A program made the position numbers and the translations under genes. A stretch of 38,620 nucleotides of DNA, taken from Candidatus Moranbacteria bacterium GW2011_GWE1_49_15 (GTDB lineage: Bacteria; Patescibacteriota; Minisyncoccia; Moranbacterales; GWC2-37-73). The notes beneath the pieces are model-generated. The model saw nothing but the letters and a program-made list of their open reading frames with translations, did no database searches and was not told the DNA's origin. Within the stretch, counting starts at the first letter, position 1, and each line of letters opens with the position of its first letter. Below, piece after piece: positions 31,917-33,082 of the stretch. The DNA is taken from the NCBI GenBank assembly GCA_001003855.1, contig LCPX01000002.1, positions 1-38,620 of the forward strand, in the 5' to 3' direction.

Positions 31917-32000
31917 TTGGGAAAGGGGTCGGGAAAACGGAAGTTTTCCCGGGGTGGAAATATTAAAACCGCAAGGTTTTAAAGAGTGCTATGCACGACA
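31917..32000 (+). repeat. Repeat A copy 1, immediately 5' of tRNA-Tyr
   Basis: About 73/80 identical to 32231-32310; hairpins GGGAAAAC-GGAA-GTTTTCCC, AAAACC-GCAA-GGTTTT, GTGC-TAT-GCAC. Confidence 0.85.
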
Positions 32001-32003
32001 AAT

Positions 32004-32086
32004 GGGTAGTTGGCGGAGTGGTCAATCGCAGCTGACTGTAAATCAGCCGACTTCGGTCTTCGGGGGTTCGAATCCCTCACTGCCCA
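32004..32086 (+). tRNA. tRNA-Tyr (GTA)
   Basis: GGGTAGT/ACTGCCC acceptor, anticodon loop CTGTAAA, long variable arm, T-arm GGGGGTTCGAATCCCTC. Confidence 0.93.
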
Positions 32087-32141
32087 CATGGTACGAAGTA
32101 CCTTATGAGATGTAAATGGGATGAGAAGTTTATGCCCTGAA

Positions 32142-32224
32142 AGGGATTCGAAGGGTGCGCCCGGGAAAAGCGAACAGCTTTACTTTTTCAGCACCCAGGT
32201 CCGAAGGAGAATCCCTCACTACCC
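32142..32224 (+). repeat. Repeat B1: palindromic cassette downstream of tRNA-Tyr
   Basis: GGGATTC (32143-32149)/GAATCCC (32209-32215); GGGTGC (32153-32158)/GCACCC (32191-32196); right end GAATCCCTCACT duplicates tRNA-Tyr 32070-32081. Confidence 0.8.
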
Positions 32225-32226
32225 CG

Positions 32227-32309
32227 GTGGGAAAGGGGTCGGGAAAACGGGAGTTTTTACGGGGTGGAAATATTAAAACCGCAAGGTTTTAAGGAGCGCT
32301 ATGCGCGAC
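32227..32309 (+). repeat. Repeat A copy 2, immediately 5' of tRNA-Thr(GGT)
   Basis: GGGAAAGGGGTCGGGAAAACGG..GGGGTGGAAATATTAAAACCGCAAGGTTTTAAGGAGCGCTATGCGCGAC; GCGC-TAT-GCGC replaces GTGC-TAT-GCAC. Confidence 0.85.
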
Positions 32310-32451: not shown

Positions 32452-32613
32452 ATGGGACACATCAAGGACACAATGGCGAAGATGCGATGCTCTGAATGCA
32501 AGGAAATCAATTACTATTCTTCACGCAACAAGAAGAAGGTAAAGGAGAAACTTGAGATGAACAAGTATTGCAAGAGATGCCAGAAGCACACGCTTCATAA
32601 GGAAATGAAATAG
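32452..32613 (+). CDS. rpmG: 50S ribosomal protein L33 (absent from ORF track)
   Basis: [53 protein letters not shown], CxxC..CxxC zinc form; start could be ATG 32473. Confidence 0.93.
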
Positions 32614-32649: not shown

Positions 32650-32720
32650 GCGGGCATCGTATAGTGGTAATACGGCGGTCTCCAAAACCGTTAACGTGGG
32701 TTCGATTCCTACTGCCCGTG
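32650..32720 (+). tRNA. tRNA-Trp (CCA)
   Basis: GCGGGCA/TGCCCGT acceptor, CGGT-CTCCAAA-ACCG anticodon arm, G73, T-arm GTGGGTTCGATTCCTAC. Confidence 0.93.
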
Positions 32721-32727
32721 CATTATT

Positions 32728-32764
32728 CAAAAAGCATACCCCTTTATGATGGGTATGCTTTTTG
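32728..32764 (+). terminator. Terminator-like hairpin after tRNA-Trp
   Basis: CAAAAAGCATACCC-9 nt-GGGTATGCTTTTTG, 14-bp perfect stem. Confidence 0.85.
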
Positions 32765-32782
32765 AACATGTCATGAGATGTA

Positions 32783-32869
32783 GAGGGAATCGAAGGGCGC
32801 GCCCGGAAAAAGTGAACAATTTCACTTTTTCAGCGCCCAGGTCCGGAGGAGATTCCTACTGCCCGTGCA
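32783..32869 (+). repeat. Repeat B2: palindromic cassette downstream of tRNA-Trp
   Basis: GGAATC (32786)/GATTCC (32851); GGGCGC (32795)/GCGCCC (32833); AAAAAGTGAA-CAAT-TTCACTTTTT; right end GATTCCTACTGCCCGTGCA identical to tRNA-Trp end 32704-32722. Confidence 0.85.
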
Positions 32870-32877
32870 AATGAAAT

Positions 32878-32915
32878 AAAAGACGCCTCCATGGCGTCTT
32901 TTATTTTATTTTATT
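32878..32915 (+). terminator. Terminator-like hairpin after cassette B2
   Basis: AAGACGCC-TCCAT-GGCGTCTT followed by TTATTTTATTTTATTTTG. Confidence 0.8.
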
Positions 32916-32922
32916 TTGTCTA

Positions 32923-33023
32923 AGTAGGAATCGAGCGTATATGGATGCGAGCGAGCATTCAGCGCTGCCCAGGGCAAGGAGTTTTCAGCAGAAAACGACG
33001 CGTATAATTCCTACTACCGTGCA
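32923..33023 (+). repeat. Repeat B3: divergent cassette with a third tRNA-Trp 3' end
   Basis: AGTAGGAAT (32923-32931)/ATTCCTACT (33007-33015); ATTCCTACTACCGTGCA 33007-33023 resembles the tRNA-Trp 3' end. Confidence 0.7.
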
Positions 33024-33082
33024 AAATAACAAAAGCGCTTTTGAAAAGGAGTGCTTTTTTCGGTTTTGAAGAATAATTTTAA

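Follow-up and report, generated by a model that had tools for sequence, protein, structure and literature searches.

Structured noncoding elements with tRNA-matched ends behind tRNA genes of Moranbacteria and other Patescibacteria: a candidate kind of bacterial mobile element

We analysed a window of 38,620 nucleotides (nt), a single contig (LCPX01000002.1) from the 872-kb draft genome, in 58 contigs, of Candidatus Moranbacteria bacterium GW2011_GWE1_49_15, one of the ultra-small Moranbacteria, and describe small structured elements, here called A, B, and C, that lie beside its transfer RNA (tRNA) genes. The window carries a tRNA cluster in the order Thr-Tyr-Thr-Trp, with rpsB and tsf as upstream neighbours and, from direct reading of the sequence, a ribosomal protein L33 gene at about 32473-32613 between tRNA-Thr and tRNA-Trp. 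The 3' end of tRNA-Trp is present three times, and a hairpin follows each copy (Table 1). The first-pass annotation had described this series, and our analysis recovered all three ends, the last one decayed, and three real hairpins, of which the third is weaker. With up to 3 mismatches allowed, GATTCCTACTGCCCGTGCA was found in the window only at 32704-32722 and 32851-32869, against a chance expectation of 0.01. Successive copies are separated by gaps of 128 and 137 nt, in which we searched for a plausible gene, including an integrase, and found none.

The intervals between the tRNA-Trp ends hold two specific structured elements of 75-130 nt that lack an open reading frame (ORF), namely A and then B, which has a different core and is truncated. 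In both, the left end is the tRNA T-arm in inverted form (GGAATCGA at 32786 and AGTAGGAATCGA at 32923-32934), and both left ends fold with the tRNA 3' end and terminator as a single hairpin, or quasi-palindrome. A Trp-like arrangement exists behind tRNA-Tyr, with a copy of the Tyr 3' end at 32209-32224, and the sequence behind Trp (32784-32856) is 86% identical to that behind Tyr (32142-32214). Each of these A copies has the 3' end of its own tRNA on the right and its own T-arm, inverted, on the left. The Trp modules are quite probably two insertions of small noncoding structured mobile elements, A and an older, now truncated B. The earlier reading, scars of repeated integration or excision with the outermost copy oldest, is thereby kept in part. 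Successive insertions at a tRNA gene stand, but bare integrase attachment (att) scars do not agree with structured elements and inverted copies. The proposed age order fits Trp, where the outer B is truncated, but not a tRNA-Gln locus (G000:C40), where the outer copy is better preserved.

For wider comparison, genomes were labelled G and loci or segments L. The source genomes are mostly draft metagenome assemblies, and the repeats, of 100-200 nt, lie inside single contigs beside unique genes. BLAST with the window copy of B (32923-33016), in which the 5' strand of helix P1 and the first hairpin are gone, returned several matches per genome across the family, with upstream flanks belonging to many tRNA kinds. 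We aligned 33 copies (alignment A1) and used R1 as the covariance model for the B family. In A1, P1 appears as GGGCAG/CTGCCC with the variants CGGCAG/CTGCCG, GGTGG/CCACC, and CAACAG/CTGTTG, P3 as CGATGGATGC/GCATTCAGCG with GTAG pairing to AGCTC, and P4 as GGAG...CGAC versus CGAG...TGAG. On A1, 96.1% of cells are paired in the fold. Two-sided changes occur in 17 of 22 pairs (7.9 in shuffles and ≤5 in slid controls) and in 83 cells (20.3 in shuffles and ≤10 in slid controls). R1 matched the window with 49.4 bits (32849-33016) and found B in 17 of the 19 genomes of the GTDB family, at 1-10 copies per genome. Across the phylum it found B in 15 of 287 genomes, other classes included, again beside tRNAs. 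A tRNA or transfer-messenger RNA (tmRNA) gene lies on the same strand within 450 nt of 108 of the 129 B elements, and the hosts comprise 23 tRNA kinds plus one tmRNA. B is a dispersed multicopy family with a conserved covarying fold, placed on the tRNA strand. Furthermore, the exact element pattern matched 25 stretches among 84,980 species genomes. Of these, 18 records are Candidatus Moranbacteria or Moraniibacteriota and 1 is from the Parcubacteria group, within which NCBI taxonomy places Moraniibacteriota as part of Patescibacteria.

Table 1 Features of the tRNA cluster and its elements in the window
Feature	Position	Strand	Details	Basis
Element C copy, just upstream of tRNA-Tyr	31918..31999	+
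tRNA-Tyr (GTA)	32004..32087	+	second occupied target	ARAGORN
Element A behind tRNA-Tyr	32142..32224	+	Tyr-specific ends: GGGATTCGAA left, GAATCCCTCACTACCC right
Element C copy, just upstream of tRNA-Thr (GGT)	32228..32309	+	93% identical to the copy at 31918-31999
tRNA-Trp (CCA)	32650..32721	+	target gene	ARAGORN; Rfam tRNA, 63.3 bits
tRNA-Trp 3' end, copy 1	32704..32722	+	inside the gene	sequence repeat
Terminator-like hairpin S	32726..32766	+	16-bp stem, 32726-32741/32751-32766	-22.3 kcal/mol
Element A, left end	32785..32794	+	inverted Trp T-arm copy GGGAATCGAA; pairs with the T-arm in one hairpin with S
Element A, core	32795..32850	+	P1 GGGCGC/GCGCCC (32795-32800/32833-32838), inner hairpin, AGG, P4 TCC-GGA-GGA (32842-32850)
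tRNA-Trp 3' end, direct copy 2	32851..32869	+	right end of element A	sequence repeat
Terminator-like hairpin S'	32869..32911	+	19 stem positions, 32869-32887/32893-32911	-24.4 kcal/mol
Element B, left end	32923..32934	+	12-nt inverted copy of TCGATTCCTACT (32702-32713)	100% match
Element B, core (truncated)	32935..33006	+	P3, 3' strand of P1, GGGCAAGGAG, P4, and GACGCG retained	R1; alignment A1
tRNA-Trp 3' end, decayed copy 3	33007..33023	+	right end of element B, ATTCCTACTACCGTGCA
Terminator-like hairpin S''	33031..33058	+	weaker; 33031-33042/33047-33058	-12.6 kcal/mol

The ends of B follow the host gene. The left end is the reverse complement, and the right end a direct copy, of the T-arm and 3' half of the host tRNA, with junctions in the T-loop. 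End specificity was measured on 104 non-redundant B elements from 23 tRNA kinds, with 500 shuffles in which the tRNAs were reassigned. For left ends, the longest inverted match to the own tRNA averaged 11.8 nt, versus 7.3 nt after reassignment (maximum 7.9), and for right ends the longest direct match averaged 11.1 nt, versus 5.3 nt (maximum 5.9). Left ends also track variants of the T-loop: GTCCGATTCC is answered by GGAATCGGAC, GTTCAATTCC by GGAATTGAAC, and, for tmRNA, GAGTGCAATTC by GATTGCACTC. Behind the tmRNA gene at L104, an element B has tmRNA-specific ends, and its left end, GATTGCACTCC, fits the unusual T-loop of that tmRNA.

The cores behave differently from the ends. Cores with 90-95% identity were found behind unlike tRNAs (Tyr/Gln, Pro/Asp, Tyr/Lys, Gln/Lys, and Ser/Glu), and for many cores the best partner sits behind a different tRNA. 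In pairwise alignments, identity is limited to the block formed by the T-arm complement, the core, and GACGCG, with a sharp loss outside it. Within this block the T-arm complement differs exactly where the tRNAs differ (Tyr/Gln, Pro/Asp, and Ser/Glu). Core identity combined with altered T-arm complements is direct evidence for retargeting with re-made ends, and cores cross tRNA kinds and genera with ends that fit the new tRNA. Inheritance by tRNA kind was considered and rejected, as the median core identity across genera was 0.563 for the same tRNA and 0.580 for different tRNAs.

A single long quasi-palindrome, made up of the tRNA 3' half, the terminator, and the left end, is seen in nearly all of the 86 distinct segments. 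It arises because the inverted tRNA copy starts directly at the 3' arm of the terminator. Recent copies (L020, L021, L027, L047, L050, L052, and L144) have the tRNA 3' end and terminator duplicated as direct repeats of 30-50 nt, a duplication also present at L236. The palindrome and the duplicated terminator together indicate a product of the form tRNA-[3' half-S]-inverted 3' half-core-[3' half-S]. To account for it, a trans-acting enzyme would join the element at a break in the T-loop, and the downstream half of the target would be copied twice, once forward and once by folding back. Forward copying would duplicate the 3' end and terminator, leaving the tRNA gene and its terminator intact, while fold-back across the palindromic terminator would make the inverted left end. 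The enzyme probably recognises the folded core, as RNA or single-stranded DNA, and successive insertions could then stack behind one tRNA.

We propose, with a probability of roughly 45%, that these are bacterial mobile elements of a new kind. Each would be a folded nucleic acid of about 130 nt, free of protein, that could insert at the T-loop in any gene for a tRNA or tmRNA and would have both ends rebuilt from the target, one inverted and one direct, via fold-back at the terminator. In Patescibacteria this route would be used by no fewer than three unrelated cores (A, B, and C). If confirmed, it would represent a new insertion chemistry and would account, with no need for integrases, for the repeated tRNA ends and the islands of Patescibacteria. 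R1 finds the family at once, and the identity of the enzyme or RNA activity acting on the T-loop would become a testable question in genomes with very few genes.

Several results weigh against the reading of the Trp modules as insertions of mobile elements. The T-loop break, the forward copying, and the fold-back are all inferred, the last from end products only. Comparison of genomes revealed neither a pair of strains that differ by an insertion nor, among the families compared with element carriers, a mobilising enzyme. An exact left T-arm fit was observed in 61 of 75 testable cases, not in all. Moreover, same-tRNA copies in related genomes (Lys, Gly, and Pro; g4 and g7) are 94-100% identical, which implies that many copies are old and inherited and makes a host function that keeps them possible.

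According to the first-pass annotation, a three-module structure conserved in distant relatives would point to function and away from scars. The tRNA-Trp locus in 20 genomes is variable instead, with an A-type element in five (G000, G001, G004, G011, and G017), a B-type element in three (G015, G016, and G018), and neither in 12. The integrase-bearing DNA that the annotation had anticipated at this tRNA in relatives does exist, since in four of the 12 element-free loci (G002, G010, G037, and G042) the gene for a large serine recombinase extends into the 3' end of tRNA-Trp. The variable locus and the recombinases at tRNA-Trp argue against a conserved function and for a contested insertion site. 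The repeats of the window itself nonetheless derive from the structured elements.

A host-serving cis RNA nonetheless deserves consideration. The elements would then serve tRNA operons as RNAs for regulation or processing, comparable to rtT repeats in Escherichia coli tyrT, and the left end would pair with the tRNA 3' half or the right copy as a fold switch, its complementarity kept by selection. The strong conserved fold, the fixed orientation and position downstream of tRNAs, and the single hairpin formed by tRNA, terminator, and left end are all consistent with this, as is the situation behind tRNA-Lys, where in two genera the left complement remains perfect across 18-22 nt even though the right copy is decaying. 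We consider it unlikely, however, given that presence is patchy, varying by tRNA and genome (12 of 20 Trp loci hold no element), and that cores cross tRNA kinds and genera. Three cores sharing one end design also fit mobility better than a single function.

It is quite unlikely that large serine recombinases aimed at tRNAs mobilise the elements in trans, the elements being att-site remnants or passengers of these enzymes. Among 30 loci with PF07508 large serine recombinases in Patescibacteria, 17 are convergent with and near tRNA genes of many kinds, and most of these overlap the tRNA 3' end (L243-L271, with L362, L364, and L365); at L229 such a gene leads directly into a B element at its inverted tRNA-Glu end. 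According to a 2014 paper, no serine integrase was known to use tRNA genes as targets (PMC4383910). On the other hand, none of the 30 recombinase loci has an element within about 1.5 kb, PF07508 is missing from B-bearing G000, G005, G011, G126, G215, G293, and G304 and present in B-free G002, G006, and G027, and the junctions differ, being in the acceptor arm for islands (L233 and L236) and in the T-loop for elements. Serine recombinases are common, but were rejected as partner for want of strict co-occurrence and for their different junctions. Three PF07508 genes overlap tRNA-Trp by exactly 15 nt.

Target-primed reverse transcription, in which a bacterial element akin to short interspersed nuclear elements (SINEs) would use a resident reverse transcriptase (RT), seems improbable. 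An RNA-like fold, a target duplication spanning from the T-loop to past the terminator, and microhomology at the left junction of L021 would suit it, but we looked for RVT_1 in the element-rich, nearly complete genomes G009, G011, G014, G017, G207, and G237 and did not find it. Likewise, the Y1 transposase PF01797 was sought and not found in G001, G004, G009, G011, G013, G015, G017, G207, and G237. RT and Y1 transposase were rejected as obligatory partners on their absence from several element-rich genomes. Classical att scars, in which integrase-bearing elements entered and left the tRNA-Trp 3' end and displaced ends and terminators stayed behind, are highly improbable: such events are classically recognised by direct copies of a tRNA 3' end (Islander, PMC4383910), serine recombinase genes run into tRNA-Trp in four relatives, and gene islands lie between tRNA and element copies at L228, L232, L235, and L236, but what lies between the copies is specific, repeated, structured, and free of integrase or ORF, inverted copies are foreign to att scars, and the same cores recur behind 23 tRNA kinds.

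At L224, L228, L229, L232, L235, and L236, a tRNA is separated from a distant element that carries its ends by gene islands of 1-8 kb, which contain RT, Fic, a primase-like fragment, trypsin-like, HD, and unknown genes. No transposase is common to L224, L228, L229, and L232. In a search of 2.9 million viral contigs for an autonomous version, the exact A and B patterns gave 0 matches, and a looser pattern gave only chance matches.

Elements of this kind were not described in the literature we searched, although subscription papers were mostly outside its reach, and Rfam cmscan, at the gathering threshold and relaxed to E values up to 5, returned only tRNAs and chance matches and none to the elements. 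In the tyrT operon of E. coli, rtT repeats stand in tandem behind a tRNA gene, and each includes roughly 19 nt from the 3' end of the tRNA. The present elements share tandem downstream repeats with a tRNA 3'-end copy but differ in having an inverted tRNA copy, many tRNA kinds, dispersal, a different covarying fold, and no Rfam rtT match even at E values up to 5. Like repetitive extragenic palindromic sequences with their associated tyrosine transposases (REP/RAYT) and other bacterial miniature inverted-repeat transposable elements (MITEs), they are short, noncoding, palindromic, multicopy, and probably moved in trans. Unlike these, they are strictly tRNA-targeted, both ends are target-made, and many carriers lack the Y1 transposase family. 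Short inverted ends (GGATT/AATCC) and a duplicated tRNA 3' end and terminator were observed, as might be expected of a MITE, but the ends come from the target and not from the element. To our knowledge, no described bacterial transposon, REP, MITE, or integron cassette has target-specific ends remade at each insertion. The hallmark of hepatitis delta virus (HDV)-like ribozymes is a nested double pseudoknot with a catalytic C in J4/2. An HDV-like ribozyme, suggested by the P1/P3/P4 order and GGGCAA, was rejected because the P2 candidate lacked covariation, there was no J4/2, and Rfam gave no HDV match.

Genomic islands at tRNA and tmRNA genes (Islander, PMC4383910) likewise show a displaced direct 3' copy, an intact tRNA, and tandem arrays. 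The elements, however, measure about 130-190 bp without an integrase, carry an inverted copy next to the terminator, have T-loop junctions on both sides, and place the same core behind many tRNAs. Dictyostelium tRNA gene-targeted retroelements (TREs; PMC5006619) and SINEs also use tRNA flanks as safe sites and have an RNA-like structured core, whereas the present elements are bacterial, about 130 nt long, carry one inverted target copy, and by co-occurrence do not need RT. In the resources searched, structured elements with target-derived ends have no described counterpart.

Cores A and C have the same end design as B. In the source genome and others, element A is hosted by Trp, Tyr, Gln, Ser, Lys, Pro, and Gly tRNAs. 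Its core is smaller than that of B, with P1 as GGGCGC/GCGCCC, GGGTGC/GCACCC, or GGGT/ACCC, then AGG and a mini-hairpin of TCC-GAA-GGA or CCC-GAA-GGG. Among 11 sequences only, 92% of cells are paired and two-sided changes are present. In G021, a minimal element A of 52 nt lies behind tRNA-Pro in a tandem array of units of about 120 bp. At this locus (L303, G021:C19) the identical 120-bp units comprise the tRNA-Pro 3' end, terminator, and minimal element A, with an assembly gap inside, and the array is a recent in-place amplification. At a tRNA-Ser locus (L004, G000:C58), an element C is nested within the apical hairpin of an element A. Some C copies have T-loop ends, with inverted and direct matches of 17 and 16 nt for Arg, 8 and 22 for His, 10 and 16 for Glu, and 8 and 18 for Asp. 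A subtype of C, comprising the window copies and L370, L371, and L373, precedes the start of the next tRNA (Tyr, Thr, Arg, and Phe) by a near-constant 82-86 nt, a position other than that of the T-loop insertions.
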